Positions 46,832 to 64,000 of a stretch of 64,000 bases of DNA are shown here, one piece after another. Origin of the DNA: Alteromonas stellipolaris. Lineage in GTDB: Bacteria; Pseudomonadota; Gammaproteobacteria; Enterobacterales; Alteromonadaceae. The translations under genes and the position numbers were made by a program. Each line of letters opens with the position of its first letter. The first letter of the stretch is position 1. Below the pieces are notes generated by a model. The model saw only the letters and a list, made by a program, of their open reading frames with translations. It had not been told where the DNA came from and made no database searches. The stretch is taken from assembly GCF_001562115.1 (NCBI RefSeq), contig NZ_CP013926.1, positions 124,001-188,000 on the forward strand, read 5' to 3'.

Positions 46832-49147
46832 TTAGAAATTACGTCTAACGGTTACGCCGTAAGTGCGTGGTTTCGCATAAGAGATTTGTGATGTACCGTA
46901 GAAACCTGATACGTCAAAACCAATTAATTCGTGATCTGAATCGGTAAGGTTATCTACGTAAGCGGCTACGCTCCATAAATCTTCTTTGTCAGTCCAGGTA
47001 ATGCGTGCATCAGCTTTGAAGTGGCTTTCAATGGTATGCGCCGTAAAGTTTCTCGCGTTGTGGAAAGATTCAGACTGGTATGAACCACTGATTAGCGCTG
47101 CAATACTGCCGCTGTCTATATCCCATGTGTAGCGCACTAAACCAGATGATTGCCATTCAGGTGTGTACGGCGGGGTAGTGTCTACAAATACGCCTGAAGC
47201 CACCTCTAAGTCTTCAACAACGGCATCGGTGTAAGACACGCCGAACATGATGTCTAACGCATCAATAGGGTTTAATAGTAGTTCAACTTCAGCACCGGTA
47301 AATTGCGCGTCTTCGTTGAAAACCACACCGGCATTGTTTACCCATGAAAACGACTGATAGTCAGTATAATCATAGTAGAAAATACTACTGTTTAACTGTG
47401 CTTTGCCGTCCATTAGAGTTAGCTTCGCGCCCGCTTCATAGGCAAGAAGTACTTCAGCGTCGTAGGTGCTAAAACTGCCGCCTAAAGGCGCGTTGAAGTT
47501 ACCGGCTTTTACGCCTCGGTTAATACCGGCATATAACAGGGTGTCTGAGTTTGGCTTATAGTCTAACTGTAGCTTTGCAGACCACATGGTTTCATCGTTA
47601 TCCATGGCTACATCTACTAATGGATCAAGGCTGTAATCTACTTCAATATCACGGTCTACCAAGTTGGCATTTTGGCGTAGCTGGCCGTCCATCGACTTAT
47701 TTTCACGTACTAAACGTAAGCCCGATACCAGTACTAGTTCGTCGGTTAAATCGTAGTCGATTTGCCCAAATACTGAGTATGAATCGGTATCGATAGTGGC
47801 TAATGTGTTTTGTTCTTCACCGGCCAAATAGCCGCCTGTTGGGCTTGCGGCTAGACCTTGTAAGTAGTCGGTTTCAATGCTTAAGTAATAAAAACCTGCT
47901 ACCCATTTACTGTTCATGGTGTTGCCGCTTACTCGCAACTCTTCACTGAACTGGGTAATGTCGCCATCTGACTGGAAAATTAATTCTGGTGAGGCGGTTT
48001 GATCTGAATCTAGGCCGATAACGCGAGTAAAGTTCTTCCAGTCGGTCACCGAGGTAAAAGTGAAGTCGTCAAAATCATATTCGTAAGTTGCTGCTAGGCC
48101 GCGAGACTTAATTTTGTTTTGATCTTCAAAGGCGAAGTCTTTATTTACTTTTTCGCCGCTTCCATCAGGGTCGATATTACCGTTAAAGTCACCGCCTTGA
48201 ACTGGGCGCAGTGGGTCGCCGTTAAAGTTACCATCTACACAAGCGCCAGCTTGAATAGTGTCACAACCTAGTGGATCGTCAGCGGCATAAATAACATCAA
48301 TAACATTGCCAGCAGCGTCTTTTACTTCTGTGGTATTAACCACTTGATAAGGGCCTTCACTTTTGGTTGTATCTGCCCAGTTTGCACTAACTAGTAGGTT
48401 TGAATTAGCGCTTAAATCAAAGTTTAACTGAGCACGGAATGCCTTGGTATCGTCGTTGTAACCGTCTTCACCGCCGCCAATGCTGCCCGCACGAGTATCT
48501 GGCGCGGCTTCATCTTCATACACGTTCTCAAGGATGTTACCCATCTTGTTTGCCATCACCGAGATACGGCCAGATACTTTGTCGCTTAGTGCGCCCGATA
48601 CCGCACCTTCAAACCGTTTTTGTTCGAAGCTAGCAAAGGTGAGTTCAGCGTAACCTTCCACTTCTTCGGTAGGCTTCGCTGTAATGGTATTTACCATACC
48701 GCCAGTGGCGTTCCGGCCAAAAAGGGTGCCCTGTGGGCCTTTCAAAATCTCAACACGGGCGATATCGAATAAACCAAATGTTTGCGCTTGTGTACTGGCT
48801 AAGTACCCGCCATCTACGTATACCGCCACCGGAGCTTCAGCAATGTCTGCGTAATCGTTTTGTACCACACCACGAATATTAAAGATGGCGCGTTGACCAC
48901 CAATATCACCAGCTAGGGAAACACCTGGCGTAAATGCAATTAGGTCGGTGCTGCTTTCAAAACCCAATGACTCCATTTGCTCGCCACTGAATGCCGTTAC
49001 CGCAATACTTACGTCGTTTATGTATTGCTCACGCTTTTGCGAAGTAACCGTAATTTTTTCAAGTACCACCGAATCTGCTGCTGCAGTGTAGGAAGATTGA
49101 AGCGCCAATCCTATTGCTAAAGCGCATAGCGTCTGTTTCGATTTCAT
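46832..49147 (-). CDS. TonB-dependent outer-membrane receptor beside the F420 operon
   Basis: 771 residues. A signal peptide (about 1-24, ending YTAAA before DSVVLEK) is followed by a TonB-box-like EKITVTSQKREQ, a plug (NIRGVVQND, VYVDGGYLAS, VEILKGPQGTLFGRNATGG) and a beta-barrel ending in YGVTVRRNF with terminal Phe. It belongs to the large group of organic-substrate receptors (iron-independent, no Fur box). AAGGGAA precedes the ATG by about 8 nt. It is last in line after the F420 genes, separated by 399 bp that contain both a TTTACC-type and a TTTCAT-type palindrome. It therefore has its own promoter but probably shares regulators with the F420 and pyrimidine genes. A nucleoside, nucleobase or hydantoin-like substrate is inferred, not shown. 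Confidence 0.9.
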   Translation of the reverse strand: MKSKQTLCALAIGLALQSSYTAAADSVVLEKITVTSQKREQYINDVSIAVTAFSGEQMESLGFESSTDLIAFTPGVSLAGDIGGQRAIFNIRGVVQNDYADIAEAPVAVYVDGGYLASTQAQTFGLFDIARVEILKGPQGTLFGRNATGGMVNTITAKPTEEVEGYAELTFASFEQKRFEGAVSGALSDKVSGRISVMANKMGNILENVYEDEAAPDTRAGSIGGGEDGYNDDTKAFRAQLNFDLSANSNLLVSANWADTTKSEGPYQVVNTTEVKDAAGNVIDVIYAADDPLGCDTIQAGACVDGNFNGDPLRPVQGGDFNGNIDPDGSGEKVNKDFAFEDQNKIKSRGLAATYEYDFDDFTFTSVTDWKNFTRVIGLDSDQTASPELIFQSDGDITQFSEELRVSGNTMNSKWVAGFYYLSIETDYLQGLAASPTGGYLAGEEQNTLATIDTDSYSVFGQIDYDLTDELVLVSGLRLVRENKSMDGQLRQNANLVDRDIEVDYSLDPLVDVAMDNDETMWSAKLQLDYKPNSDTLLYAGINRGVKAGNFNAPLGGSFSTYDAEVLLAYEAGAKLTLMDGKAQLNSSIFYYDYTDYQSFSWVNNAGVVFNEDAQFTGAEVELLLNPIDALDIMFGVSYTDAVVEDLEVASGVFVDTTPPYTPEWQSSGLVRYTWDIDSGSIAALISGSYQSESFHNARNFTAHTIESHFKADARITWTDKEDLWSVAAYVDNLTDSDHELIGFDVSGFYGTSQISYAKPRTYGVTVRRNF

Positions 49148-49246
49148 GATGTGTTCCCTTCTTGTTGTTGTTACATCTACAAACTACATAGAAGTATTTT
49201 TTGTTTTTTATTTGATTAACTTTTGTTCTAACGAAACTAAAGGGGT

Positions 49247-49262
49247 TTTACCAAGGGGTAAA
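49247..49262. promoter_or_regulatory. TetR/RutR-type operator candidate (site A)
   Basis: TTTACCAAGGGGTAAA has perfect 6-bp arms TTTACC/GGTAAA with a 4-nt centre, the same architecture as the sites before cofG and the hydrolase gene. It lies 100 bp upstream of the receptor start codon. Confidence 0.65.
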
Positions 49263-49283
49263 TATTCATGTGTCGAAGTCATG

Positions 49284-49546: not shown

Positions 49547-50548
49547 TTAGCGGAAAGCAGGGATAACTTCTTTGCCGTAACGAGTGATAATATTTTCTTC
49601 ATCACCGTTATCTAAATAGATATTAAATTGCGTGGTTCCAGCGTTTTTAAGCGCCTGAATTTTAGTAATGTGATCTTCAGCTTCACCTAACACACAGAAG
49701 CTTTTGACGATGTCGTCAGTAATAAAGTCTAGGTAGGGGTTATCGCTTTGACCATGCTTCGAGTAATCGTAGCCACGACGTTGTTCAATATAATCGGTTA
49801 AGCTTTTTGGTACTAAGCCTGAATCTGTACCGTATTTTTCAACAATATCGGCCACGTGATTACCTACCATGGCAGGGAACCACTTGGTTTTTTCAATACA
49901 GGTTTCCATGTCACCAAAGTAAGCAGGTGCAGCGGCTTGAACTTTGAAGTTGCTCATGTCGCGCTCAACTTTGTTCCCGGCATCTTGGCACTGTTGACCA
50001 AACCATTGCACCAAATCTGGGTCGCCAATTTGAAGAATGACACCATCGCCATGTTCACCGGCTACTGCTAAGGCTTTCGGACCATAAGCGCCCACCCAAA
50101 CTGGCAGTTCATAGCCTGTAGCCCACGGGAATTTAACCGGCTTTTCGCACTCGCCGTACATCACTTCTTCACCACGCACCATGGCTTTCACTTTATGGGT
50201 GAATTCGGTTAAGCGAGCAAGGTTCGCAGGCTTTTTACCCATTACACGCATAGAAGAATCACCACGACCTAAACCAATGTCGAAACGGCCATTACTTTGC
50301 AGTGCCAAACTGGCGTATAAGCTTGCCGCTACAGACCAGTCACGTACGTTAGGGTTGGTCACACACGGGCCAAAGCGCATTTTGGTGGTGTGCTCCATAC
50401 ACATGGCCATTGCCACGAACGACTCGCGCCAAAGGATGTGTGAATCGTAAAACCAGCAATAATCGAAACCGGCTTCTTCAGCCATTTTTACTAATTTACG
50501 GGCACGATCTGGGCTAACAAAGCCTTTAAATGTGATACCAAATTCCAT
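49547..50548 (-). CDS. LLM-class F420-dependent oxidoreductase (Mer-like)
   Basis: 333 residues, a TIM-barrel protein of the luciferase-like family in the branch related to F420-dependent methylene-tetrahydromethanopterin reductase. MEFGITFKGFVSPDRARKL, FDYCWFYDSHILWRESFVAM, GPCVTNPNVRDW, GRFDIGLGRGDSSMRVMGKK and VWVGAYGPKALAVAGEHGDG are typical of F420-binding members. AGAGGA lies 8 nt before the ATG. It is the only substrate-type F420 enzyme visible and is the seventh gene of the cofactor operon, 103 bp after npdG. It is thus the likely reason the cofactor is made. From the neighbouring beta-alanine/N-carbamoyl-amino-acid genes, ring reduction of uracil, thymine or a related compound is inferred. 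A DPD-independent oxidation elsewhere is the alternative. Confidence 0.88.
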   Translation of the reverse strand: MEFGITFKGFVSPDRARKLVKMAEEAGFDYCWFYDSHILWRESFVAMAMCMEHTTKMRFGPCVTNPNVRDWSVAASLYASLALQSNGRFDIGLGRGDSSMRVMGKKPANLARLTEFTHKVKAMVRGEEVMYGECEKPVKFPWATGYELPVWVGAYGPKALAVAGEHGDGVILQIGDPDLVQWFGQQCQDAGNKVERDMSNFKVQAAAPAYFGDMETCIEKTKWFPAMVGNHVADIVEKYGTDSGLVPKSLTDYIEQRRGYDYSKHGQSDNPYLDFITDDIVKSFCVLGEAEDHITKIQALKNAGTTQFNIYLDNGDEENIITRYGKEVIPAFR

Positions 50549-50651: not shown

Positions 50652-51332
50652 TTAATGATCCGGTGGGCAAATACGAATGCCTGCATGACTAAATGGCACT
50701 GCTTTGGATATGTTTAAGCGAATTAAAATAGGGGTAATGGCTTCAATACAACGGGCGCTTTCAGCTAGGCCAGCGTTGTAACTTTGAACGCCTAAGTTAT
50801 CTAGTAATGCTATTACTTTGTTTTTCGCTTCAAGCTGATTACCGCACACCAAAATGTCGCAGTTAATGCTTTGCTCAAGATTGTTAAGGGTGACAGCTGA
50901 TACATTATGCAGCGCGCCGACTACGGCATAGTCATCGCCTAATAATGCTTGAGCAGATTCTGTGGCTGAACCTTCTGGTGGCATAGCAACCGCTTTGGGG
51001 TTGTTTTCAGCCAACGGCACGACAATGTCGATAACAATTTTGTCGCGAAGTAATGGGCGAATTTGATCTAAGGTCGCGTGATGTGCTGCCCAGGGTACTG
51101 AAATAATCACGAATTCATCTGCTGCCGATGTGGCTGCAATAGTGTCTGTGCCACTGATGGTGCCAGTAGTGGCAGTACTTGCCGCAGCAATGGATTCTTG
51201 TAGTGCTTTAGCTTTTTCTGCTGCCCGTTCGCCGTCTCGCGAACCAATAACTACGTCTATTCCCGCTAGGGCGAAGCGTTTCGCTAGCCCCGAACCTTGC
51301 GGGCCAGTGCCGCCTAAAATAGCAATCTTCAT
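50652..51332 (-). CDS. npdG: NADPH-dependent F420 reductase
   Basis: 226 residues, a Rossmann protein of the Fno/NpdG family that transfers hydride between NADPH and F420. The N-terminal [20 protein letters not shown] binds NADP, with [15 protein letters not shown] after it as the 2'-phosphate-recognising segment. [20 protein letters not shown] and the C-terminal [19 protein letters not shown] end fit the family. Its start overlaps the cofE stop (ATGA). In this operon it most likely makes F420H2 from NADPH for the LLM enzyme, since no F420-dependent glucose-6-phosphate dehydrogenase is present. Confidence 0.95.
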
Positions 51333-52111
51333 GCGAATAAATCCTCTTGGGTTGGTCTTAACAGGTCTGAGGCTTTACTGTCTGGGTTACTTTCCCATTC
51401 AAGCCCTTTAAATAAAATAACGGGGCACTTACCTTGTTTACTCATCAGCAAACCAGAGGCTGCAGCAAGTTCATCGGCAAGGGCAGGCGCGGTAACTTTT
51501 AGGGGGCGACCCCACGCATCACATTCACCATAAAGTGGGTTTAGTGCAGGCACATTCGCTACGCCAATGGCCACGTTGGTTTGGCCTAAACGCCATGGGC
51601 GGCCAAAAGTATCGCTTATCACCACACCAATACTGTGCTCTGGTGCGCCGTAATATTTGCATAAGCTTTCGGCAATAATGCGTGCGCTGGTATCAGGGTC
51701 TTTAGGTAATAAAATCAGCTCGCCTGGGTTATCGGTATTCGATTCATCCACTGCGGCATTGGCACTTATATGGCCTAATCTGTGCTCGGTAATAATAATC
51801 CCTTCATTGGCAGCAGGGTGTTTATGCACTTTTACTAAGCGAGTAGATTCAGACAGAATCACAGTAACTTTACGAGGGTCTTTATTCACCTTTTCAGCCA
51901 CGTCGATGGCTTCTTCGGTAGGGGTAATATCGTCAACATGGCAAACCGCGCCTTCCGCTTTCGATATGATTTTTTGTGCGATAACCAGTACATCGCCTTC
52001 ACATAACACCTGTCGCTGTGCGGTAAGCTTTTCAATTATCAATTCCACAAGGTTGTCGCCTTCGCGAATATCCGGTAAGCCTTCTATGGTGTTGATGGTA
52101 AGTGCTCGCAT
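51329..52111 (-). CDS. cofE: Coenzyme F420-0:L-glutamate ligase
   Basis: 260 residues. It adds the gamma-linked glutamates to F420-0 with GTP. Typical elements are [59 protein letters not shown] and [22 protein letters not shown], which includes metal- and GTP-binding residues. The protein stops at normal single-domain CofE length: the C-terminal nitroreductase-like domain of actinobacterial FbiB, which reduces dehydro-F420-0, is absent. It starts 10 bp after cofC and overlaps npdG by 4 nt. Confidence 0.96.
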
Positions 52112-52121: not shown

Positions 52122-52733
52122 TCAAGCAATTAAGGAGTCGACAACGTCATTCACATGACGAAGATCGTCTGGATGGTCGATGTCTTGACTTAAAAATTTA
52201 GGCTGAACGGTCACGCACTTTAAGCCTTTTTCAATGGCCGCTTGGTGATGCTCATAAGAAGATGATTTGCCAAATGCAAAATCAATGGCGTTAGGGGGCG
52301 TAGTGCATAGTGCGTTAGTGCCGCCATCATATGCACTGCCAATAACCACTGATGTATCGCCTGAGGCCAATGATGCAATAGAACTCAGCTCTTTTTCTTC
52401 TAACCGAGCAATATCAGCAGGCAGAATAAGTTGATGGCTAAACCCTTGTGACATACTCCATTCGGTGGCTTGAGTTAAGGCTGTGTTTAAGTTGCTGCCT
52501 TTGGTCTCAAATATTACTTTGCAGCCTAAGCTGGTGGCTAAATCGGCGATATATAGCGACGGCGTTACCACTAGTTTTTGCCATTGTGGAAATGAACCGT
52601 TTAACGACATAACGGTTTTCTTGAACAACTTAATGGCTAACGCTTTACGTACGCTGGCAGGCAAATGTGGTGACAAACGCTGCTTGCTGAACGCAGGATC
52701 TTTCATGGGGATAACAACGCATAGTTTATGCAC
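52122..52733 (-). CDS. cofC: 2-phospho-lactate (or related phospho-acid) guanylyltransferase
   Basis: 203 residues, GTG start with a strong GGAGGT 6 nt upstream, overlapping the cofD stop by 8 nt. It activates the phospho-acid that becomes the F420 side chain, by transfer of GMP from GTP. The N-terminal VVIPMKDPAFSKQRLSP is the nucleotidyltransferase loop. ILPADIARLEEKE and VVIGSAYDGGTNALCTTPP complete the site. Enzymes of this family differ in using 2-phospholactate, phosphoenolpyruvate or 3-phosphoglycerate; which one is used here cannot be read by eye. Confidence 0.93.
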   Translation of the reverse strand: MHKLCVVIPMKDPAFSKQRLSPHLPASVRKALAIKLFKKTVMSLNGSFPQWQKLVVTPSLYIADLATSLGCKVIFETKGSNLNTALTQATEWSMSQGFSHQLILPADIARLEEKELSSIASLASGDTSVVIGSAYDGGTNALCTTPPNAIDFAFGKSSSYEHHQAAIEKGLKCVTVQPKFLSQDIDHPDDLRHVNDVVDSLIA

Positions 52734-53682
52734 AAGGCACCTCCGGTTGATAAGTGGTGGCCGCCGAAATAACCTCTTCCATTAGTGCTACTTTGTCGTG
52801 ATCTGATTTCATTAAGGTTGAAGTGCAATGAGCGTGCAACCCAAAACTTTCGATAACGTTTGTTTCGCCTTCATCTTGATTATCAATGACCAATACATCG
52901 CAAATATCTTGGTAAAATTCAGCAATGCCTTTGTTACCGGGTGTATAGCTCATTTGTTGTAGTAGCTTTTCAGCAGGGCCTTTTATGGCCTTGCCACCAA
53001 TTAGCGGCGAAACCGCAATTTTGGTGGCGTTGCTTGCTGATAGCGCATCGCGAAATTGGGGTATGGCTAACATGGGAGCAATACTGAGTAGCGGGTTGCT
53101 AGGGGCAAATACGATAATGTCAGCAGCGCTAATGGCCGCCAACACTTCAGGAGTAGCAGAAGCAAGATGTGCCCCTTCGTACGCAATATTGGTTACGTTA
53201 GCTTCGCAGCGTTGGTGTACAAAGTAAGTCTGAAAATCCACCCAGCCGTTTTCAGTTTCAAGACGAGTTTGCAGAGTATCGTCGGTAGCTGGCAGCAAAG
53301 GTACGGTAATACCTAATCGGGTGGTAATTTGGCGAGTAATCGCCGTCATAGTCATGCCTTCGGCCCGCTTAGCGCTTCTGAAAATATGGGTGGCAATATC
53401 CATATCTCCCAAATGCATCCATGTGCTTGAACCAAATTGAGCAAGCCGAGAAAGAATGCGGCAGCTGTCGTTTTTAAGCCCCCAACCAGTAACTGGATTC
53501 ACTTCGTTCGCTAATGTGTAGGTAAGCGTATCTAAGTCAGGCGACACCCATAAATTATGGAATTCGTCGTCATCACCTACGTTGCCAATAATGGATAGGT
53601 TATCTTTGTAAGCCGACTGATACAGGCCCTTCGCAGCTTTTGCACCGCCTACGCCACCGGCGAGTAACACAATGTTTTTCAT
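52726..53682 (-). CDS. cofD: 2-phospho-L-lactate transferase (F420 side-chain transferase)
   Basis: 318 residues. It joins the GDP-activated side chain to the deazaflavin Fo, giving F420-0 or a variant. MKNIVLLAGGVGGAKAAKGL is the glycine-rich N-terminus. GNVGDDDEFHNLWVSPDLDT with its acidic metal ligands, LNATDDTLQT-type spacing and VFAPSNPLLSIAPML are CofD hallmarks. It overlaps cofH by 4 nt (ATGA) and cofC by 8 nt, so the cofactor genes are translationally coupled. Confidence 0.97.
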   Translation of the reverse strand: MKNIVLLAGGVGGAKAAKGLYQSAYKDNLSIIGNVGDDDEFHNLWVSPDLDTLTYTLANEVNPVTGWGLKNDSCRILSRLAQFGSSTWMHLGDMDIATHIFRSAKRAEGMTMTAITRQITTRLGITVPLLPATDDTLQTRLETENGWVDFQTYFVHQRCEANVTNIAYEGAHLASATPEVLAAISAADIIVFAPSNPLLSIAPMLAIPQFRDALSASNATKIAVSPLIGGKAIKGPAEKLLQQMSYTPGNKGIAEFYQDICDVLVIDNQDEGETNVIESFGLHAHCTSTLMKSDHDKVALMEEVISAATTYQPEVPCA

Positions 53683-55031
53683 GCGCTTACCTTCACGGGA
53701 ATGTGAGATGACGTGTTAAATGGGCTAAAGACTGTTTTGTCTTTTTGTGGGGCTGCTGGGCTAGCAGTTTCTGAGCCCACAAGCGCCGCTTGGTGAGCAG
53801 GCTTTTTGTCACGGCCGTACGGGGTAATTACGTCGTACAAAGTATTACGTTGATGGGCGCTTAGCCCAGCGCGCTGAATAAAGTTCACCATATCCCGAGG
53901 GACAATTTCTTGACCGTGGCTAGCACCTGCTGCACGAGAAATACTCTCGTTCATTAGGGTGCCTCCTAAATCGTTAGCCCCTGCACGAAGCACTTTCGAC
54001 GCCATATCTGGCCCCATTTTCACCCACGAGGCTTGAATGTTATCGATGTAACCTTGCAACACTAATCGCGCAATGGCGTGCATTTTGAAATGCTCATCGG
54101 CTGTTGGGCCAGTTCTTACTTCGCTAGGGTTATTTTTATAAAGGGGGCTGTCGTTATGTATAAAGCCTAACGGAACAAATTCGGTAAAGCCGCCAGTACG
54201 AGCTTGCATGTCGCGCAATAAAATAAGGTGAGCGGCCCAGTGTGATGGCCCATCTATGTGCCCATACATAATGGTAGATGTTGTCGGTAAACCAACGTTG
54301 TGCGCGGTTTCTATGATTTTAAGCCAGTTTTCGGTGCTAAGTTTGTTTTTAGTTAGTTTGCGTCTTACTTCAGTATCTAGAATTTCAGCTGCCGTACCAG
54401 GCATAGATGCTAAGCCGCGCTGTTTTAAGTCGGTTAATAAATCTGTGTAGCTTTTGCGGCCTTTCATTGCGCCATACCAAATTTCAAAAGGCGAATAGGC
54501 ATGAATGTGAACATCAGGCACGGTAGATGACACCGTATCGAGTAAGTCGCCATAAAAACTGGCGGGTAAGTCAGGGTGAAGGCCACCTTGAACACAAATT
54601 TCAGTTGCGCCCCGAGCGTGGGCTTCTTTGGCTCTAGCGGCCACTTGATGAGGGGCCAAAAACTCTGCATCGCCGGCGTTTTTATTCACCCCGAAATTAC
54701 AAAACTGACAGCCCATATGGCATACATTGGTAAAATTAATATTGCGAGTTATTACAAACGACCCGTCATTACCGGTACGCAGTTCGCGCACAATGTCGGC
54801 GGTGTGCAATAGGGCATCGGTTTCCGGCCCTTGGCAATAAAACAAGGCTTCCGCTTCTTCATGATTAAGCATTTTGCCTTCTAAAGCCCGCTGTAAGATA
54901 TGGGCAATAGCAGGGCGAAGTTGGCTTAGCTTAGTTTGAATAGGTGTATCGCTGTAGGGCAAGGTGAAGTCGCCTGCTGGCGTTAAGTCGCAAGGTGAAA
55001 CCGAGGTGATATTTTGCAGTATGTTACCCAT
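53679..55031 (-). CDS. cofH: 5-amino-6-(D-ribitylamino)uracil-L-tyrosine 4-hydroxyphenyl transferase (Fo synthase subunit 2)
   Basis: 450 residues from the ATG at 55031, which has AAGGAG 7 nt upstream; a longer reading from 55061 lies inside cofG and is rejected. It is a radical-SAM enzyme with cluster cysteines C104, C108 and C111 in CHMGCQFCNFG. It attaches tyrosine-derived hydroxybenzyl to the riboflavin precursor, the first half of Fo synthesis. The tail beyond about residue 410 is a low-complexity extension (SETASPAAPQKDKTV) not needed for the fold. The start overlaps the cofG stop by 8 nt. Confidence 0.96.
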   Translation of the reverse strand: MGNILQNITSVSPCDLTPAGDFTLPYSDTPIQTKLSQLRPAIAHILQRALEGKMLNHEEAEALFYCQGPETDALLHTADIVRELRTGNDGSFVITRNINFTNVCHMGCQFCNFGVNKNAGDAEFLAPHQVAARAKEAHARGATEICVQGGLHPDLPASFYGDLLDTVSSTVPDVHIHAYSPFEIWYGAMKGRKSYTDLLTDLKQRGLASMPGTAAEILDTEVRRKLTKNKLSTENWLKIIETAHNVGLPTTSTIMYGHIDGPSHWAAHLILLRDMQARTGGFTEFVPLGFIHNDSPLYKNNPSEVRTGPTADEHFKMHAIARLVLQGYIDNIQASWVKMGPDMASKVLRAGANDLGGTLMNESISRAAGASHGQEIVPRDMVNFIQRAGLSAHQRNTLYDVITPYGRDKKPAHQAALVGSETASPAAPQKDKTVFSPFNTSSHIPVKVSA

Positions 55032-56448: not shown

Positions 56449-56479
56449 TAAAAGGCGCGCTTTTACGATGAAGCGCGCC
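56449..56479 (-). terminator. Terminator of the RutR-like regulator gene
   Basis: GGCGCGCTT and AAGCGCGCC form a 9-bp stem with an 8-nt loop; on the minus strand it is followed by TTTTACTTT. It separates the regulator gene from the F420 operon promoter. Confidence 0.85.
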
Positions 56480-56510: not shown

Positions 56511-57140
56511 CTAGTGTTGTGCATCTAGGGCGCTTAAAACGAAATTGCATAAAAATTCAGTGGCTTCGTTAAAATCATCTTGCTCTAACGCGGGTTTACC
56601 TAGCAACAACTGAATTTGCGTAGAGAAGTCGGCATAGGTTTGTGTGGCAGCCCAGATGGTAAAGAATAGATGCTTAGGATCAACAGGGCGAATGTGACCT
56701 GCTGCTATCCAGCGCTCAAGAATTTTCACGTCTCGTTCAAACGCAGGCTTTAAATTTTCTATCAAATACGTTTTCAGTACCGGTGCGCCGTTTATGATTT
56801 CATGGGCGAATACTTTCGAACCATTGGGGTAATCACGAGATAATTCTATTTTCTGCTGAATGTACTGACGAATGGTACTGGCTGGAGATGCCTCAGGGTC
56901 GTCGTTGAACTGCATTTTCTCAAGCCATAAATCAATCATGTTTTCGAGTACGGCTTGGTACAACTTATCTTTGCCTGAAAAGTAATACAAAATGAGTTGT
57001 TTAGAGAGGCCGGCTTGTTGCGCCACTGCATCCATTGAAGAGCCAGCAAACCCTTTTTGTGCAAATATTTCTTCTGCGGCGCGCAGAATTCCGGCCTCTG
57101 TTTTTGCACGATTGGCCTGCGTCTTTGTAGGTTTTGTCAT
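56511..57140 (-). CDS. TetR-family regulator, RutR-like
   Basis: 209 residues. The N-terminal TetR HTH (about 15-60, AEEIFAQKGFAGSSMDAVAQ then AGLSKQLILYYFSGKDKLYQ) is followed by the RutR-type C-terminal domain with IELSRDYPNGSKVFAHEIIN, GAPVLKTYL and RPVDPKHLFFTIWAATQTYA. These align well by eye with E. coli RutR, which senses uracil and controls pyrimidine use. It stands between the F420 operon and the transaminase genes, in the same direction as the F420 operon but separated from it by a terminator. Palindromes close to the RutR box lie before three neighbouring transcription units. It is probably a repressor relieved by uracil, thymine or a pathway intermediate. Confidence 0.9.
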   Translation of the reverse strand: MTKPTKTQANRAKTEAGILRAAEEIFAQKGFAGSSMDAVAQQAGLSKQLILYYFSGKDKLYQAVLENMIDLWLEKMQFNDDPEASPASTIRQYIQQKIELSRDYPNGSKVFAHEIINGAPVLKTYLIENLKPAFERDVKILERWIAAGHIRPVDPKHLFFTIWAATQTYADFSTQIQLLLGKPALEQDDFNEATEFLCNFVLSALDAQH

Positions 57141-57285: not shown

Positions 57286-58215
57286 CTAAATAGCAATGGG
57301 TTCTTCCTTCCCATGTTCTTTGGCAAGCGCTTCTAAAAAGAGCTCTACCAAGCGGGTGGGCTTAGGTGACTTACGATAAATGGCCGCGAATTCACAATGA
57401 TAGGCGAAATTATTGGGCTCGATAGCCCGCATCTGGCCTTTTTTTACGAAAGACTCTGCATAATGATCAGGCAAGAAGCCTAAATAACAGCCCGAAGAAA
57501 TCAGTGTGGCAATACCTTCTTGATCGTTCGCAACCGCCATTTTGTTAAGCCCCAGAGACATACTTTTGTCCATATTTGGGCTGTGAAAGCTTAGCCCCGC
57601 ATACTTGGCGTCGCAAATCTCTTCACGGGAAATATCCCCTAGTTCTATGTAAAAAGGGTGCTTGCGTCCGCAATACAAATGCATCTGCTCACCAAACAAG
57701 GGTAAGTAATTTAGGCTTGAGGAAGAGCGATGGGTAGGAATAATGCCAATATGATAGCGCCCATCCAATATACCTTGCTCAATGGTATTAACTGGCACCA
57801 CATGAATTTCGACATTCACATTAGGCGCCTGCTGCTGATAGGTGTATATGGCTTCATTCACTTTACATGCATCGTTCGACACGGTTTTATCAAACATGGC
57901 TACCACCACATTGCCCTGCAAATGCCGATGCATGTCGTTTACTTCGTTTCTAAAGTCTTGCAACGACAACAACAAACGCTGTGTAGATTCATAAATACGC
58001 TTTCCTTCTTCGGTAAGCGAAAAGCCCCCACGGCCTCGATGACAAAGCACCATACCTAATCGGGTTTCTAAATCTTTCAAATGTCGGCTAATGGTAGAAC
58101 GCCCAATATTGAGTTCAAGCTCGGCAGCAGAAAGGCCGCCAGCCTGTGCCACCACTATGAATACTCTCAATAAGCGAATGTCTGTATCTGATAGGTTTCC
58201 AAGAATTGCGCGCAT
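57286..58215 (-). CDS. LysR-family regulator divergent from beta-alanine transaminase gene
   Basis: 309 residues. The HTH is near 20-50 (GGLSAAELELNIGRSTISRH), followed by LGMVLCHRGRGGFSLTEEGK and a PBP2-type effector domain. It diverges from the transaminase/MmsA operon with 102 bp between starts. A 6-4-6 palindrome (TTTCAT/ATGAAA) lies 2 bp before its start codon, suggesting autoregulation. The same palindrome precedes the TonB-dependent receptor gene. It is the likely second regulator of this pathway; the ligand is unknown. Confidence 0.9.
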   Translation of the reverse strand: MRAILGNLSDTDIRLLRVFIVVAQAGGLSAAELELNIGRSTISRHLKDLETRLGMVLCHRGRGGFSLTEEGKRIYESTQRLLLSLQDFRNEVNDMHRHLQGNVVVAMFDKTVSNDACKVNEAIYTYQQQAPNVNVEIHVVPVNTIEQGILDGRYHIGIIPTHRSSSSLNYLPLFGEQMHLYCGRKHPFYIELGDISREEICDAKYAGLSFHSPNMDKSMSLGLNKMAVANDQEGIATLISSGCYLGFLPDHYAESFVKKGQMRAIEPNNFAYHCEFAAIYRKSPKPTRLVELFLEALAKEHGKEEPIAI

Positions 58216-58233: not shown

Positions 58234-58317
58234 GTAAGATTTGAATATTTATAATTTATCGAACTTATGCGGCTGGGTAAAGTAGACCAAGTGAACAAAT
58301 ACCATAGGAAAACAATT

Positions 58318-59646
58318 ATGACCCAGTGGGCTTCCAAGCTATCACAACCGCAAATGGACGCGTTGTGGATGCCTTACACTGCAAATCGCCAGTTTAAAGC
58401 ATCGCCTAAAATGATTACCGGTGCACAGGGCAATTACCTCATTGATGACAATGGTCGTAAAATCTTCGATGGATTATCTGGGTTATGGACATGCGGCGCA
58501 GGGCACAATCGCCCTGAAATTGCCGAAGCAGTCGCTAAACAGTTAACAACACTAGATTATGCACCCGCCTTTCAGTACGGCCACAATTTGGCGTTTGAGC
58601 TAGCCGACAGGCTAGCCAACATGGCGCCGGCTGATATCAATAAAGTGTTTTTCACTAACTCAGGTTCTGAAGCGGCTGATACGTCAACCAAAATAGCCCG
58701 TGCTTATTGGCGCCAGCAAGGTCAGCCTACTAAAACTCGCATTATCGGCCGAGCGAAAGGCTACCACGGTGCAAGCTGGGGCGGCATTAGTTTTGGCGGC
58801 ATTGGCGCAAACCGCAAAATGTGGGGGCCAGCCATGGAGTCTGATCACCTTTCACATACCTTGCTGCCGAATAATCAATTCTGTAAAGGCGCACCGAACT
58901 ATGGTGAAGAGCTTGCTGATGAGCTTATCGAAATGGTGGCATTACATGATGCGTCGAATATTGCGGCGGTGATTGTTGAGCCAATGAGTGGTTCTGCAGG
59001 GGTTATTGTTCCGCCAAAAGCCTATTTACGCCGCTTACGTGAATTGTGTAACCAGCACGATATTCTGCTTATTTTCGATGAAGTAATTACCGGCTTTGGT
59101 CGCACAGGTAGCTTATTCGGGGCCGATGCGTTTGATGTAGTGCCCGATATGATTAACGTGGCCAAGCAAATCACCAATGGCGCCGTTCCTATGGGCGCGG
59201 TACTGGCTCGTGAATTTATTTACGACACCGTAGTTAACGCAGGCGGTGCCGATTACAACATTGAGTTACCACACGGTTACACCTATTCCGGCCATCCTGT
59301 TGCTTGCGCGGCCGCCATGGCTGCCCTTGATATTTTAGAACAAGAAAACCTCGTCAGCCGCGTTGCCGAACTTAGCCCTTACTTTGAAGAAGCGGTGCAT
59401 AGCTTAAAAGGCATGCCATTCGTTAGTGATATTCGAAACTTCGGCTTTGCCGCAGGCTTCAGCATTGAAAGCTACCCAGGCGAACCGGCTCGACGCCCTT
59501 ATGAAATCGCTGACGCCATGTGGAAGAAGGGGTTTTACGTACGCTACGGCGGCGACACTATTCAGTTAGGCCTTCCGTTTACCACTGAAAAAACGGAAAT
59601 CGACACCTTAATTAACGCGATGCAAGACACGTTAATGGGCAAATAG
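58318..59646 (+). CDS. Omega-amino acid (beta-alanine):pyruvate aminotransferase
   Basis: 442 residues from the ATG at 58318 (AGGAAA 9 nt upstream); an in-frame ATG at 58267 adds an unconserved leader. It is a class-III PLP transaminase. WMPYTANRQFKASPKMITGA, FTNSGSEAADTSTKIAR, GRAKGYHGASWGG, DEVITGFGRTGSLFGAD and the PLP lysine in NVAKQITNGAVPMGAV fit the omega-amino-acid:pyruvate group. It would convert beta-alanine (or 3-aminoisobutyrate) plus pyruvate to malonate (or methylmalonate) semialdehyde plus alanine. The following gene encodes the enzyme that consumes such semialdehydes, 45 bp downstream. Confidence 0.93.
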   Translation: MTQWASKLSQPQMDALWMPYTANRQFKASPKMITGAQGNYLIDDNGRKIFDGLSGLWTCGAGHNRPEIAEAVAKQLTTLDYAPAFQYGHNLAFELADRLANMAPADINKVFFTNSGSEAADTSTKIARAYWRQQGQPTKTRIIGRAKGYHGASWGGISFGGIGANRKMWGPAMESDHLSHTLLPNNQFCKGAPNYGEELADELIEMVALHDASNIAAVIVEPMSGSAGVIVPPKAYLRRLRELCNQHDILLIFDEVITGFGRTGSLFGADAFDVVPDMINVAKQITNGAVPMGAVLAREFIYDTVVNAGGADYNIELPHGYTYSGHPVACAAAMAALDILEQENLVSRVAELSPYFEEAVHSLKGMPFVSDIRNFGFAAGFSIESYPGEPARRPYEIADAMWKKGFYVRYGGDTIQLGLPFTTEKTEIDTLINAMQDTLMGK

Positions 59647-59691
59647 CCCTTTACCGTCTTGGTCCACTTACGCAAAAAAAGAGATACAGAT

Positions 59692-61191
59692 ATGACTTCA
59701 TTGGTAGGACACTTTATTCATGGCGAACACGTAGCGCCGCAAGATGGAAATTTGATTGATATTCACAACCCTTCTACTGGCGCTGTGTGCGGAAAAGTAG
59801 AAATGGCCTCGGCTGCGTTGGTGCAAAAAGCGATAGATTCAGCAAAAACGGCGTACCCAGCATGGCGTGCTACGCCACCAGCAAAACGTGCACAAGTGAT
59901 GTTTCGTCTAAAAGTATTGCTAGAGCAACACAGCGATAAAATTTGTGAATTAATCAGTGAAGAGCATGGCAAAGTGCTACACGATGCGAAAGGTGAATTA
60001 CAACGCGGTATTGAAAACGTTGAGTTTGCTTGTGGCATGCCTCAATTACTTAAAGGCGAACACAGCAAAGATGTGGGCCCAGGTATAGACGCGTGGAGTG
60101 AATTCCAGCCGCTAGGTGTAGTGACAGGTATTACGCCGTTTAACTTTCCGGCCATGGTGCCTTTATGGATGTGGCCCAGCGCTATCATGTGTGGCAACAC
60201 CTTTGTGTTGAAACCATCCGAAAAAGACCCTTCCAGCGCACTATACATAGCAGCCCTAGCGGCAGAAGCCGGTTTACCACCGGGTGTACTTAACGTGGTA
60301 AACGGCGACAAGTCAGCCGTTGACCAACTGTTAGAAGACCCGACCATTCAAGCGGTAAGCTTTGTAGGTTCAACCCCTGTTGCTGAAGCTATTTATCAAA
60401 AAGCCAGTGCCAACGGAAAGCGTTGCCAAGCTTTAGGTGGTGCGAAAAATCACGCCATTGTTATGCCAGATGCCGATGTAGATAACGTAGTAAATGCACT
60501 AATGGGCGCTGCGTTTGGATCATGTGGCGAACGCTGTATGGCGTTATCGGTCGTGCTTGCGGTAGGTGACGAAATGGGCGATACCCTGCGCGACAGATTG
60601 TCAGCGCAAATTGAAACGCTCAAAGTGGGTGCGGGTAACGACAATAGCAATGACATGGGGCCGTTAATCAGCGCTCAACATTTCGATACAGTGAGTGGGT
60701 TCATCGACTCTGGCGTTAGCCAAGAAGCTGATTTGGTCAGTGATGGTAGAAAGCTCAGTGTAGAAGGTTTTGAAGATGGCTATTTCTTAGGGGCTACTTT
60801 GTTCGACAAAGTAAAACCTCACATGGAAATTTACCAAAAAGAGATCTTTGGCCCCGTGCTTGTGATGTTACGTGTCCCCGATATGCAAACGGCACTTGAG
60901 CTAATTAACGCGCACGAATATGGAAATGGTACCTGTATCTTCACCCGTGACGGCGAGGCCGCACGCTTCTTTATCGATCAGGTTCAAGTGGGCATGGTGG
61001 GTGTGAACGTACCGTTACCTGTACCTGTGTCTTACCACAGCTTTGGTGGGTGGAAGCGCTCATTGTTTGGCGATTTACATGCGTATGGCCCAGATTCAGT
61101 GCGTTTCTACACGCGCAGAAAAGCCATTACACAACGCTGGCCGTCAACGAACTTGCGTGAAGGCAGTCAATTTTCTTTCCCAAGTAACTAA
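59692..61191 (+). CDS. mmsA: CoA-acylating (methyl)malonate-semialdehyde dehydrogenase, MmsA paralogue
   Basis: 499 residues from the ATG at 59692; an upstream in-frame TTG is rejected. LGGAKNHAIVMPDADVDNVV replaces the general-base motif, as in MmsA at 21695. The active Cys lies in GSCGERCMALSV, and the end is VSYHSFGGWKRSLFGD. It would turn malonate semialdehyde from beta-alanine into acetyl-CoA and CO2 (or methylmalonate semialdehyde from thymine into propionyl-CoA). It follows the transaminase gene by 45 bp and is closed by a perfect 14-bp terminator stem. The pathway context distinguishes it from the valine-pathway copy. Confidence 0.93.
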   Translation: MTSLVGHFIHGEHVAPQDGNLIDIHNPSTGAVCGKVEMASAALVQKAIDSAKTAYPAWRATPPAKRAQVMFRLKVLLEQHSDKICELISEEHGKVLHDAKGELQRGIENVEFACGMPQLLKGEHSKDVGPGIDAWSEFQPLGVVTGITPFNFPAMVPLWMWPSAIMCGNTFVLKPSEKDPSSALYIAALAAEAGLPPGVLNVVNGDKSAVDQLLEDPTIQAVSFVGSTPVAEAIYQKASANGKRCQALGGAKNHAIVMPDADVDNVVNALMGAAFGSCGERCMALSVVLAVGDEMGDTLRDRLSAQIETLKVGAGNDNSNDMGPLISAQHFDTVSGFIDSGVSQEADLVSDGRKLSVEGFEDGYFLGATLFDKVKPHMEIYQKEIFGPVLVMLRVPDMQTALELINAHEYGNGTCIFTRDGEAARFFIDQVQVGMVGVNVPLPVPVSYHSFGGWKRSLFGDLHAYGPDSVRFYTRRKAITQRWPSTNLREGSQFSFPSN

Positions 61192-61200
61192 TATCTCAAA

Positions 61201-61305: not shown

Positions 61306-61321
61306 TTTACCATTCGGTCAA
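61306..61321. promoter_or_regulatory. TetR/RutR-type operator candidate, degenerate (site D)
   Basis: TTTACCATTCGGTCAA has core ACC....GGT and arms matching 5 of 6; the right arm GGTCAA equals the E. coli RutR half-site. It lies 267 bp upstream of the hydrolase gene and may be a second, weaker site. Confidence 0.5.
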
Positions 61322-61472: not shown

Positions 61473-61494
61473 TTATTTACCGTTTGGTAAATAA
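61473..61494. promoter_or_regulatory. TetR/RutR-type operator before the hydrolase gene (site C)
   Basis: TTATTTACC-GTTT-GGTAAATAA is a perfect 9-4-9 dyad containing the TTTACC/GGTAAA arms of site B. It ends 94 bp upstream of the hydrolase start codon. Confidence 0.78.
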
Positions 61495-61587: not shown

Positions 61588-62862
61588 ATGGATAAGCTTA
61601 GAATTAACAGTCAAAGATTATGGGACAGCCTGATGGAAATGGGCGAGATTGGCGGCACTGAAAAAGGCGGTTGCAATCGCTTAGCCGGCACAGATCTAGA
61701 CAAGCAAGCTCGAGACTTGTTTTGCGCATGGTGTGAAGCCACGGGGTGTGAAATTAGCATAGATAAGTTTGGTAATATTTTTGCTAAACGCCCGGGCATC
61801 AATAACGAACTACCTTCAGTGGCGACCGGAAGCCACTTAGATACTCAGCCTACAGGCGGAAAGTTCGACGGCGTATTCGGTGTATTATCCGGCGTTGAAG
61901 TACTTCGAACCCTACATGAAAACAACATTACTACCCCAACCCCAATTGAAGTCAGCGTTTGGACGAATGAAGAAGGTTCTCGCTTTCAGCCCGCCATGCA
62001 AGGCTCTGGTGTTTACGTTGGGCGCTTCGACTTACAAGAAGAATTAGATAAAACCGACGTAAACGGTTTGCGTTTAGGCGATGAACTCGCGCGCATAGGC
62101 TACTTAGGTGAAGAAGAATTAGGAAGCCGCAACATAGGCGCATTTTTTGAAGCCCATATCGAGCAAGGCCCAATATTAGAAGATGAAGAAAAACGCATTG
62201 GTGTAGTACGTTTAGGCCAAGGTATTCGCTGGTATAACGTAGAAATACAAGGTCAAGAATCTCATTCTGGCACAACGCCAATGCACTTACGCAAAGATGC
62301 CATGGTAGCCACAGGTAAAATTGTGGCAGAAATCGAATCGCTAGCTAATCGTTATGACAATGGTCTTGGAACAGTAGGTTTCATGCAGGTATATCCTAAC
62401 TCACGTAATACTATTCCTGGAAACGTGAAGTTTAGTGCCGATTTACGCAACCCTAACCCAGATGTGTTGGCCACTATGCATGAAGAGTTTGTGGCTTACT
62501 GTGATTCGGTAGCCAAAGAGCGTAACTTAGAAATTACCGTGGATAACTTCTGGTACTTTGCGCCAGTAGAGTTTAATGCCTCTGACGATGTAAAAGCTGC
62601 CACTGAAAACTTAGGATATTCACACATGGATATCTACGCGGGTGCTGGTCACGATGCCTGTTACATGGCCGACCTAGTGCCAGCGGGCATGATTTTCACT
62701 CCATGTGAAAATGGCATTAGCCACAACGAAATTGAATACTCTAGCCCAGAGCAATGTGCAGATGGTGCAAACGTATTGCTTCATACCATGTTAACCGCCA
62801 GCAAGCGTATTGCTGAAGCCGCCGGTGCTTCAATTACTGAAGATGAAGGGGCAAGCGTATGA
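61588..62862 (+). CDS. Zn-dependent N-carbamoyl-amino-acid hydrolase (beta-ureidopropionase type)
   Basis: 424 residues of the hydantoinase/carbamoylase M20 family. The metal site is shown by ATGSHLDTQPTGGKFDGVFG, SVWTNEEGSRF, EAHIEQGPILE, GAGHDACYMA and GISHNEIEYS; the lid domain has VEIQGQESHSGTTPM. It would hydrolyse N-carbamoyl-beta-alanine (or N-carbamoyl amino acids) to beta-alanine, CO2 and ammonia, delivering the substrate for the neighbouring transaminase. GAGGA lies 8 nt before the ATG. It overlaps the permease gene by 4 nt. The D- or L-carbamoylase alternative cannot be excluded, but the beta-alanine genes next door favour pyrimidine breakdown. Confidence 0.92.
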   Translation: MDKLRINSQRLWDSLMEMGEIGGTEKGGCNRLAGTDLDKQARDLFCAWCEATGCEISIDKFGNIFAKRPGINNELPSVATGSHLDTQPTGGKFDGVFGVLSGVEVLRTLHENNITTPTPIEVSVWTNEEGSRFQPAMQGSGVYVGRFDLQEELDKTDVNGLRLGDELARIGYLGEEELGSRNIGAFFEAHIEQGPILEDEEKRIGVVRLGQGIRWYNVEIQGQESHSGTTPMHLRKDAMVATGKIVAEIESLANRYDNGLGTVGFMQVYPNSRNTIPGNVKFSADLRNPNPDVLATMHEEFVAYCDSVAKERNLEITVDNFWYFAPVEFNASDDVKAATENLGYSHMDIYAGAGHDACYMADLVPAGMIFTPCENGISHNEIEYSSPEQCADGANVLLHTMLTASKRIAEAAGASITEDEGASV

Positions 62863-64000
62863 GTTCAGAAATTAGTGAGGTCACACTCAGTAAATCGGTG
62901 ACCGAGAGTGATTATTTTAACGAAGACTTAGCGCCGACTAAATTATCGGAGCGTACTTGGGGTACAGGTAATATTGCCGCGCTTTGGGTGGGGATGGCGG
63001 TTTGTGTGCCTACCTATACCTTAGGCGGTGTTCTCACCACTTACTTTGGTCTGTCGGTCATTGAAGCCTTGTTTACTATTTTGTTGGCGAACATAGTGGT
63101 ACTAATTCCGCTTACGTTAAATGCATTTCCAGGCACAAAGTTCGGTATTCCCTTTCCGGTGGTACTGCGCTCGTCATTTGGCATTGTAGGCTCTAACATT
63201 CCCTGTTTGATTCGGGGGTTTGTCGCCTGCGGCTGGTTTGGCATTCAAACCATGTTTGGTGGCCTGGCCATACATTTGTTTCTATCCTCTATTTCAGATG
63301 GCTGGGCACAGCTTGGCGGTATGGGAGAGGTCATTGGCTTCTTCGCATTTGGTGCATTAAATGTCTTTATTGTAATTAAAGGGTCGGAGTCAATTAAATG
63401 GCTAGAAACCTTAGCAGCTCCCTTGCTATTAATCGTAGGTGCCGGGCTAATCTGGTGGGCAAGCGACAAAGTATCGGTAACTGAAGTGTTGGCTACCCCA
63501 GCTAGCAGACCCGAAGATGCAGGCTTCTTTAGCTACTTCTTTGCAGGGCTAACTGCCATGGTCGGGTTTTGGGCAACATTGTCGCTGAATATTCCTGATT
63601 TCAGCCGTTATGCTAAAAGTCAAAAAGCCCAAGTTACTGGGCAAATCATTGGCTTGCCACTCACCATGTTCATGTTTGCCGCCCTTGGTGTGTTACTGAC
63701 TTCAGCCTCTACCACGCTGGTAGGTGAAACGGTTTCAGATCCTGTTACCTTAATAGGTCATATCGATAGCCCATTTTTTGTGGCCATTGCCATGCTACTT
63801 ATTATTGTGGCTACCTTATCTACTAACACCGCCGCAAACGTAGTATCGCCCACCAACGACTTTCAAAATATTGCCCCTAAGTACATTAATCACACCCGTG
63901 GGGTATTGCTAACTGGCATAGTTGGCGTGTTATTAATGAGTTGGGAGCTTTTGAAAAAAGCTGGGCTTATTGAATCTGATGTAAGCGTAGATAGCTTGTA
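62859..64000 (+). CDS. NCS1-family nucleobase:cation symporter (partial, 3' end beyond window)
   Basis: 380 codons are visible, open to the end of the window. The start ATG overlaps the hydrolase stop (ATGA). The N-terminus has the family pattern LSERTWGTGNIAALWVGMAV, followed by VPTYTLGGVL, FPVVLRSSFGIVGSNIP and the later LSLNIPDFSRYAKSQ and ATLSTNTAANVVSPTNDF, typical of NCS1 carriers of uracil, cytosine, allantoin or hydantoins (PucI/Mhp1 relatives). About ten hydrophobic helices are present so far. It is an inner-membrane importer co-transcribed with the carbamoyl hydrolase. Whether the substrate is uracil, dihydrouracil or hydantoin is undetermined. Confidence 0.92.
   Translation, partial: MSSEISEVTLSKSVTESDYFNEDLAPTKLSERTWGTGNIAALWVGMAVCVPTYTLGGVLTTYFGLSVIEALFTILLANIVVLIPLTLNAFPGTKFGIPFPVVLRSSFGIVGSNIPCLIRGFVACGWFGIQTMFGGLAIHLFLSSISDGWAQLGGMGEVIGFFAFGALNVFIVIKGSESIKWLETLAAPLLLIVGAGLIWWASDKVSVTEVLATPASRPEDAGFFSYFFAGLTAMVGFWATLSLNIPDFSRYAKSQKAQVTGQIIGLPLTMFMFAALGVLLTSASTTLVGETVSDPVTLIGHIDSPFFVAIAMLLIIVATLSTNTAANVVSPTNDFQNIAPKYINHTRGVLLTGIVGVLLMSWELLKKAGLIESDVSVDSL

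Follow-up and report, generated by a model that had tools for sequence, protein, structure and literature searches.

The F420-pyrimidine locus

The window analyzed here is the whole of a 64,000-nucleotide (nt) stretch of the Alteromonas stellipolaris genome (positions 124001-188000 of contig 1; 4.9 Mb, two contigs), and its last part holds an operon for the rare, vitamin-like coenzyme F420 beside genes for pyrimidine breakdown (Table 1). Gene identities were assigned from profile scores against the curated cut-offs of NCBIfam. The operon reads cofG-cofH-cofD-cofC-cofE-npdG-LLM on the minus strand, its last gene encoding an LLM-class oxidoreductase of family TIGR03842, and all seven genes exceed their cut-offs, as a first-pass annotation made from the letters of the window had proposed. 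With CofG, CofH, CofD, CofC and CofE all above threshold, the F420 biosynthesis set is complete. In open reading frame (ORF) coordinates, cofG overlaps cofH by 8 nt (counted to the inner cofH ATG at 55031), cofH overlaps cofD by 4 nt and cofD overlaps cofC by 8 nt; a gap of 10 nt separates cofC from cofE, cofE and npdG overlap by 4 nt, and npdG lies 103 nt from the LLM gene. The figures given earlier for these overlaps and gaps are thus correct, with a slightly different sequence of junctions, and a further 4-nt overlap joins the carbamoylase and NCS1 genes. In an alignment read by eye, the CofC of the window has Gly where M. rhizoxinica CofC has Ser162, a serine that marks the CofC of 3PG-F420 enzymes according to passages of PMC8764529. 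Classical F420 is therefore expected, and the 3PG-F420 variant was rejected on this residue. The same paper reports an assay of Paracoccus denitrificans CofC, which preferred 2-phospholactate (PMC8764529).

The neighboring genes named in the first-pass annotation, for an omega-transaminase, a CoA-acylating semialdehyde dehydrogenase, a carbamoylase-family amidase and an NCS1 permease, were all confirmed by profiles, and the next gene, which starts 358 bases past the window end, encodes a dihydropyrimidinase. Reductive breakdown of uracil and thymine proceeds by dihydropyrimidine dehydrogenase, dihydropyrimidinase, carbamoylase, transaminase and semialdehyde dehydrogenase (passages of PMC7332683). 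At family level, the last four of these are all present at the locus, and the set is complete except for the first enzyme, dihydropyrimidine dehydrogenase (PreTA). A search of the whole genome yielded no PreA above cut-off, the best partial match reaching 48 bits against a cut-off of 335, and a search at the locus found no RutA beside the cluster. Given the absence of PreA and the dihydropyrimidinase just outside the window, the LLM enzyme becomes a candidate uracil/thymine reductase. The pathway is that of reductive pyrimidine degradation. Hydantoin, which had been suggested as a substrate, is not needed. We consider it quite likely, from gene content and its comparison across genomes, that this is a reductive uracil/thymine block in which an F420 module has displaced the iron-sulfur flavoenzyme dihydropyrimidine dehydrogenase (PreTA/PydA).

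Table 1 Features of the locus, in window coordinates unless an L002 position is given; scores in bits against NCBIfam cut-offs, operators as matching bases of the 14 specified
Feature	Position	Strand	Evidence
LLM-class F420-dependent oxidoreductase; proposed F420H2-dependent uracil/thymine reductase	49547..50548	-	TIGR03842 520.3, cut-off 295.45
npdG, NADPH:F420 reductase	50652..51332	-	TIGR01915 199.9, cut-off 149.8
cofE, F420-0:L-glutamate ligase	51329..52111	-	TIGR01916 251.2, cut-off 180.65
cofC, guanylyltransferase	52122..52733	-	TIGR03552 140.5, cut-off 105
cofD, 2-phospho-L-lactate transferase	52726..53682	-	TIGR01819 273.5, cut-off 257.45
cofH, FO synthase subunit 2	53679..55031	-	TIGR03551 468.2, cut-off 374.1; inner ATG start, longest ORF to 55061
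cofG, FO synthase subunit 1	55024..56181	-	TIGR03550 466.8, cut-off 213.35; ATG behind AGGAG, longest ORF to 56199
RutR-type operator before cofG, TTTACCAAATGGTAAA	56261..56276	.	14 of 14
Terminator-like hairpin between TetR gene and cofG	56454..56479	-	9 pairs, 7 GC, T-rich tail; pattern match only
RutR-like TetR regulator	56511..57140	-	best model RutR 196, below cut-off 368; 34% identical to Escherichia coli RutR
LysR-type regulator, divergent from aptA	57286..58215	-	profile match
AptA-type omega-aminotransferase (beta-alanine / beta-aminoisobutyrate step)	58267..59646	+	NF052567 684.2, cut-off 500
CoA-acylating (methyl)malonate-semialdehyde dehydrogenase (MMSDH)	59659..61191	+	TIGR01722 650.7, cut-off 448.5
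RutR-type operator before carbamoylase (weaker)	61306..61321	.	12 of 14
RutR-type operator before carbamoylase	61476..61491	.	13 of 14
Hydantoinase/carbamoylase-family amidase, proposed N-carbamoyl-beta-amino-acid hydrolase	61588..62862	+	TIGR01879 430.9, cut-off 204
NCS1-family permease, cut by window end	62859..64000	+	TIGR00800 294.5 on cut piece, below cut-off 353.1; complete at L002:6859-8334
Dihydropyrimidinase, outside window	L002:8358-9824		576.4, cut-off 393.25; next gene after NCS1
TonB-dependent receptor, downstream of LLM gene	46832..49147	-	profile match
RutR-type operator before TonB receptor gene	49247..49262	.	13 of 14

Distribution within the genus

The block is either present or absent as a whole. 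LLM above cut-off occurs in 8 of 59 genomes of the genus, CofH in 8 and dihydropyrimidinase in 8, and these are the same eight genomes, so that all three markers are found in 8/8 carriers and 0/51 others; PreA above cut-off is found in none of the 59. The seven remaining carriers and five non-carriers were read over this region, in fetched stretches of at most 20 kb. Six of these seven carriers share with the window the order TonB-LLM-npdG-cofECDHG-TetR-LysR-aptA-MMSDH-carbamoylase-NCS1-dihydropyrimidinase; the exception is the draft genome L212, in which the contig stops after MMSDH and the dihydropyrimidinase gene lies on another contig. The window's genome and L206 show both flanking genes, thiC and hemY, whereas five carriers (L207, L209, L210, L211 and L212) show one of them and L208 neither, an incomplete view that reflects the length of the stretches. 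Four of the five non-carriers have thiC and hemY about 0.4-0.55 kb apart. The F420 part has a G+C content of 46.9% and the pyrimidine part one of 46.0%, against 45.1% for the window's first 46 kb, and this similarity gives no compositional sign of recent foreign DNA. Taken together, the block is one evolutionary unit that is all-or-none in the genus.

A single genome could show such genes side by side through chance or passive neighborhood, and the genus distribution (8/8 against 0/51) rules this explanation out; the recurrence of the block across alpha-, beta- and gammaproteobacteria with differing gene orders and the shared operator, both described below, also speak against it. We give it next to no weight, as the association of F420 and pyrimidine genes is far beyond chance.

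Position 46832, which the first-pass annotation had taken as the start of the block, proved to be the end of a TonB-dependent receptor gene instead. This gene adjoins the LLM gene in all eight carriers (the window and 7/7 others read), and one may guess at a role in the uptake of pyrimidines or nucleosides across the outer membrane. The receptor is 73% identical in locus L097, and a RutR-type operator lies upstream of its gene in the window. The LysR-type regulator gene had been left unnamed earlier. Further out, thiDE, thiC, hemY, hemX, hemD and hemC are labeled by sequence and gene order alone. The fifth non-carrier, L214, has 6.8 kb of other DNA between thiC and hemY (L214:6205-12964), which suggests that this junction may accept insertions repeatedly.

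Related loci in other genomes

The LLM gene is rare, with 3 of 397 genomes in a draw from the phylum, two of those from the genus. A scan of one genome per species gave at least 105 confirmed relatives. The 80 best of these make up loci L075-L154; they come mostly from gamma-, beta- and alphaproteobacteria and were searched with the window's proteins, including 10-kb flanks. In 61 of the 80, npdG lies immediately upstream of the LLM gene on the same strand, and in 50 cofH, cofD, cofC, cofE and npdG are all local. Carbamoylase is a local partner in 42 loci, a TetR regulator in 43, dihydropyrimidinase in 34 and NCS1 in 24. CofD or CofH is local in 58 loci, and 47 have one or more of dihydropyrimidinase, carbamoylase and NCS1; the two kinds stand together in 38 and either kind in 67. 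The remaining 13 comprise 11 loci of the Devosia type (see below) and two, L119 and L143, with the LLM gene alone. No preT, preA or rutA was found in any of the 80 loci. In genomes that have no local cofH, a whole-genome search of a partial set, positive controls included, found CofH in 13 of 17, and a similar search found CofD in 11 of 15. The block recurs in three proteobacterial classes in differing gene arrangements.

Several loci stand out individually. In Halomonas denitrificans (L085, 11139-16102), the LLM gene is followed by genes for carbamoylase, PntA, PntB and a Tsx nucleoside channel, the PntAB transhydrogenase being a possible supplier of NADPH. Seven single-cell alphaproteobacterial genomes (L133, L136, L137, L140, L146, L148 and L150) have cofD-cofE-npdG-LLM-carbamoylase-dihydropyrimidinase, with cofG, cofH and cofC not seen locally; L133 additionally carries EamA and ATP-binding cassette (ABC) transporter genes. 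L107 is labeled Nocardioides marinus, and its LLM groups with that of Leisingera; the record is probably contaminated or mislabeled.

RutR-type operators

The regulator beside cofG belongs to the TetR family, and its closest solved structures are by far those of RutR. RutR models match all 34 rows of a TetR alignment (the window's regulator, E. coli RutR itself and 32 of the 43 TetR genes in the loci) at E <= 1e-20. Operators were searched as the palindrome TTTACCANNTGGTAAA, which is close to what we take to be the E. coli RutR box, TTGACCANNTGGTCAA. Besides the sites in Table 1, the window has one further site at 12/14, at position 24341, far from the block. The hairpin between the TetR gene and cofG has the look of a terminator, and such patterns number 23 in the region against 20.3 expected.

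Across the 80 loci, the palindrome at 13/14 or better gives 52 sites. No fewer than 51 sit at most 450 bp upstream of a cluster gene, and the remaining one, in L075, lies between the LLM gene and a TonB receptor gene; five mononucleotide shuffles gave no site. A relaxed form, TTKACCANNTGGTMAA, in which K or M is allowed at two positions, gives 84 sites at 13/14 or better in 45 of the 80 loci. Of these, 71 fall in the 450 bp upstream of cluster genes, which together make up 18% of the DNA; the totals in three Markov controls were 1, 0 and 2. Among cof operons with a readable start, 36/47 are preceded by an operator; compared with 16/60 loci for the pyrimidine and regulator genes, the operator is thus tied most closely to the cof operon. 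Among the canonical preTA clusters, 9/10 have a site at 12/14 or better before preT (at 13/14 or better in five), and six of the eight with a carbamoylase gene have a site at 12/14 or better before it. The E. coli rut region shows no operator at 12/14 or better, and the operator case thus rests on the clusters themselves. The promoters of the presumed targets carry a RutR-type palindrome that we predict to be the operator. The earlier proposal that F420 is made on demand for one pathway gains support from this comparison, with sites before cofG and carbamoylase in the window and before most of the related cof operons.

The missing first enzyme

PreA was tested genome-wide in 50 of the 80 LLM genomes, and 40 have none above cut-off. 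PreA is found in 2/31 gamma- and betaproteobacterial LLM genomes and in 8/19 others, with taxa sorted by record titles and L096, titled 'Pseudomonadota' only, counted as gamma. A genome-wide dihydropyrimidinase search covered the genus and the phylum draw; in the latter, 113/397 genomes were positive, and PreA was present in 56 of the first 80 of these, with none in the three LLM-bearing genomes among the 80. Among gamma- and betaproteobacterial genomes with dihydropyrimidinase and no LLM, PreA occurs in 24/31, versus the 2/31 with LLM (Fisher p 1.2e-8, a value weakened by the different ways in which the two sets were drawn). A strict rule that LLM and PreA never occur together was rejected, as 10 of the 50 genomes have both.

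The preTA regions of these ten genomes were read. Carbamoylase and dihydropyrimidinase genes adjoin preTA in eight (L171, L173, L175-L180), and in eight (L171-L173, L175-L178, L180) a TetR gene whose product is 38-43% identical to the window's regulator lies beside it. The same kinds of partners would thus serve preTA in one type of cluster and cof-LLM in the other. In the Colwellia preTA cluster L179, carbamoylase and NCS1 are 71% and 69% identical to those of the window, closer than in several LLM clusters, a pattern that resembles an exchange of modules. L104 and L179 belong to the same Colwellia metagenome-assembled genome (G480), in which both cluster types occur, LLM-cof and preTA, and both include dihydropyrimidinase and carbamoylase genes; the carbamoylase of its preTA cluster is the one 71% identical to the window's, and that of its LLM cluster is 54% identical.

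These data also bear on the possibility that dihydropyrimidines or hydantoins themselves are imported and degraded by the block, so that no ring reduction is required, and that the LLM enzyme catalyzes a different F420-dependent reaction within the regulon, for instance on a side product or a modified base. Hydantoinase-family enzymes accept hydantoins, and Leisingera, Limimaricola and Shimia have the LLM operon alongside a complete preTA cluster. However, the regulator is RutR-like and its operator type also precedes preT, 29/31 gamma- and betaproteobacterial LLM genomes have no PreA above cut-off, many LLM columns are invariant in 81/81 sequences from loci of every kind, and the transaminase and semialdehyde dehydrogenase are of the kinds expected for beta-alanine and beta-aminoisobutyrate. 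We therefore judge direct use of dihydropyrimidines or hydantoins to be unlikely.

The LLM enzyme

The LLM protein matches TIGR03842 over its full length (residues 2-332 of 333). This family is a hypothetical equivalog of NCBI (F420_CPS_4043) whose title assigns no function, and its name was not found in the CC-licensed PMC papers searched. The nearest solved structures are those of F420-dependent Mer (115-126 bits), and the protein stays below the Mer cut-offs (135.1 and 122.5 bits versus 276 and 348.7). According to passages of PMC11094777, Mer requires Glu6 for turnover, the equivalent Glu of MTHFR being the proposed proton donor to the substrate; in a ternary-complex model Asp96 touches the pterin's pyrimidine ring, and Gly61-Val62 forms a cis peptide under F420. 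Among 81 LLM sequences, the Glu6 position holds Thr in 39 and Cys in 42, with no Glu, and D97, in the Asp96 column, is invariant (81/81). V63, at the position of jMer Val62, is likewise found in 81/81 and provides the small hydrophobic residue that such a cis peptide would call for. K8, C31, D35, S36, H37, W40, R41, C50, E52, H53, Q173, N230, H231, K264 and H265 are also invariant. Judged from this alignment, an enzyme that keeps the contact to a pyrimidine ring and lacks the acid of Mer would fit a small pyrimidine substrate. In a tree of the 81 sequences, rows with and without a local dihydropyrimidinase are interspersed.

Two other roles for the enzyme have to be weighed. It could work in the oxidizing direction, as an F420-reducing dehydrogenase for a pathway intermediate, with F420H2 used elsewhere. 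Some LLM enzymes, such as Fgd and Adf, reduce F420, and both are among its structural relatives. Yet F420H2 would already be supplied alongside by NpdG (61/80 loci) or Fgd (Devosia type), the nearest solved relative, Mer, reduces its substrate, and the genome holds just one other TIGR03842 match, of 25 bits, in a search of that family and not of other F420 families. An oxidizing role thus appears very improbable.

Alternatively, the protein could be a flavin-dependent, RutA-like uracil monooxygenase, and the F420 genes could serve another purpose. RutA is likewise a luciferase-like protein that acts on uracil, but the LLM protein scores on F420 models and on Mer, and RutA is absent from its 22 NCBIfam matches and 14 structures. 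Moreover, RutA homologues occur in 0/80 loci, the dihydropyrimidinase would be left without a substrate, and npdG is coupled to the LLM gene. We consider this role scarcely credible. Rut-type ring opening as such was rejected, with no RutA near the window's cluster and none in the 80 loci.

Devosia-type loci

A second way of obtaining F420 is suggested by the Devosia-type loci (L142, 5112-11002; L125, L127, L129, L130, L131, L135, L138, L141, L152 and L154). In all 11, the TIGR03842 gene stands with genes for an Fgd-like LLM protein, CofE, a periplasmic binding protein and an ABC transporter (FecCD permease and ATPase). Scored in L142 or L129 only, Fgd reaches 487.4 bits (cut-off 420), CofE 224.5 (180.65) and the permease 438.0 on the model 'putative F420-0 ABC transporter permease' (437.35), and the ATPase stays at 301 on the F420-0 ATPase model, below its cut-off of 372.4. 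CofH and CofD are absent from the four Devosia-type genomes searched, which are the four in which the whole-genome searches above found no CofH. A RutR-type site (12-14 of 14) lies at the operon front in 11/11 and a second one before the LLM gene in 8/11, with gene starts judged from where the family match begins. The cassette is likely to serve the uptake and completion (salvage) of F420-0, and this other route of obtaining and reducing F420, under the same kind of control, indirectly supports the link between F420 and pyrimidines.

A model for F420-dependent pyrimidine reduction

The data are in line with the following model. The NCS1 permease, in this genus perhaps together with the TonB receptor, would import a pyrimidine, in whose presence the RutR-like repressor would leave its operators, and the cofGHDCE-npdG-LLM and carbamoylase-NCS1-dihydropyrimidinase genes would be switched on together. 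CofG, CofH, CofD, CofC and CofE would then make classical F420, NpdG would reduce it with NADPH, and the LLM enzyme would reduce the C5=C6 bond of uracil or thymine by hydride transfer from F420H2. Subsequently, dihydropyrimidinase and carbamoylase would open and then cleave the ring, and AptA and the semialdehyde dehydrogenase would convert beta-alanine or beta-aminoisobutyrate to acetyl- or propionyl-CoA. The chain from NADPH over NpdG and F420H2 to LLM, which the first-pass annotation had put forward, fits the operon order and the position of npdG directly upstream of LLM in most of the related loci. Distribution, gene order and operators lend good support to a link between F420 and pyrimidine catabolism, and the genes strongly suggest the specific LLM reaction; the substrate of the enzyme, the ligand and action of the repressor and the direction of electron flow are what we infer.

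Several results weigh against this model. The name RutR-like stands in that RutR is the best model for the regulator, which nevertheless falls below both RutR cut-offs (196 versus 368 and 167.8 versus 230). Of the 47 cof operons, 11 have no operator at 13/14, that of Paracoccus denitrificans included, and an operator precedes a complete carbamoylase, NCS1, dihydropyrimidinase or TetR gene in just the 16/60 loci mentioned. Ten of the 50 LLM genomes also carry PreA above cut-off, four of the other 40 give weaker PreA-like matches (141.7-219.2 bits), and within the 50 a local dihydropyrimidinase and the absence of PreA are not associated (p 0.48). Dihydropyrimidinase is local in just 34/80 loci, in part because contigs and the 10-kb flanks end. 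In Leisingera, Limimaricola and Shimia, it accompanies the preTA cluster and is not found near the cof-LLM operon, so the LLM enzyme may be redundant there or act on something related. Finally, the LLM proteins of the Devosia type (11 rows) and of Limimaricola-Leisingera (7 rows, including L107) form clades of their own, and this separation makes a changed role in them possible.

A broader reading, which we hold to be on balance likely, is that TIGR03842 constitutes a third class of dihydropyrimidine dehydrogenase, which uses F420H2 and has neither iron-sulfur clusters nor bound flavin; that many marine Proteobacteria make F420 chiefly for pyrimidine catabolism; and that the Devosia type imports F420-0, finishes it with CofE and reduces it with Fgd under the same uracil-responsive control. 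If so, a widespread orphan family would gain a function, the reduction of uracil and thymine, possibly also of 5-fluorouracil, would gain a new chemistry, and culturable aerobic bacteria would offer an inducible test system for F420. The locus has one F420-type enzyme and lacks the standard uracil-reducing one, which hints at why some bacteria produce F420. P. denitrificans DSM 413 (L120) has a cluster with dihydropyrimidinase, carbamoylase and NCS1 and no PreA above cut-off, and the hypothesis predicts that its F420 rises on pyrimidines, with the caveat that the operator is missing before its cof operon at 13/14. An F420-dependent uracil reductase was not found in searches of CC-licensed PMC papers, which left subscription journals and preprints outside.

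Comparison with known systems

With the Pyd pathway (PydA/PreTA) the block shares dihydropyrimidinase, carbamoylase, transaminase and semialdehyde dehydrogenase, and with the preTA clusters read here it shares the operator type and a related TetR regulator. PydA/PreTA variants include NAD(P)H-dependent enzymes and the ferredoxin-dependent clostridial PydAc (passages of PMC7332683). In contrast, the window has no PreA or PreT and holds instead an LLM enzyme predicted to depend on F420, with its own F420 biosynthesis operon. The Rut pathway (RutA-G, RutR) has in common with the block the RutR-like regulator and a palindrome like the RutR box, but the 80 loci contain no RutA homologue and have the hydrolytic Pyd genes instead.

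At the level of the enzyme, Mer offers the closest solved relatives and shares the Asp at the position facing the pyrimidine ring of the pterin and the Val at the cis-peptide position; it differs in its catalytic Glu6, replaced by Thr or Cys in LLM, and in the LLM score far under the Mer cut-offs. The window's protein is a full-length member of TIGR03842, and it is the role that is proposed here.

The nearest precedent comes from a 2025 paper, passages of which describe a putative F420-dependent LLM that replaces YgfK/UacX, a PydA-like reductase, in the reductive uric-acid clusters of Chloroflexota (PMC12507026). In both cases a PydA-family reductase acting on a heterocyclic ring gives way to a predicted F420-dependent LLM. 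The Chloroflexota enzyme, however, belongs to a purine pathway (yanthine) in another phylum, and those passages describe no biosynthesis operon, shared operator or uracil substrate for it (PMC12507026).

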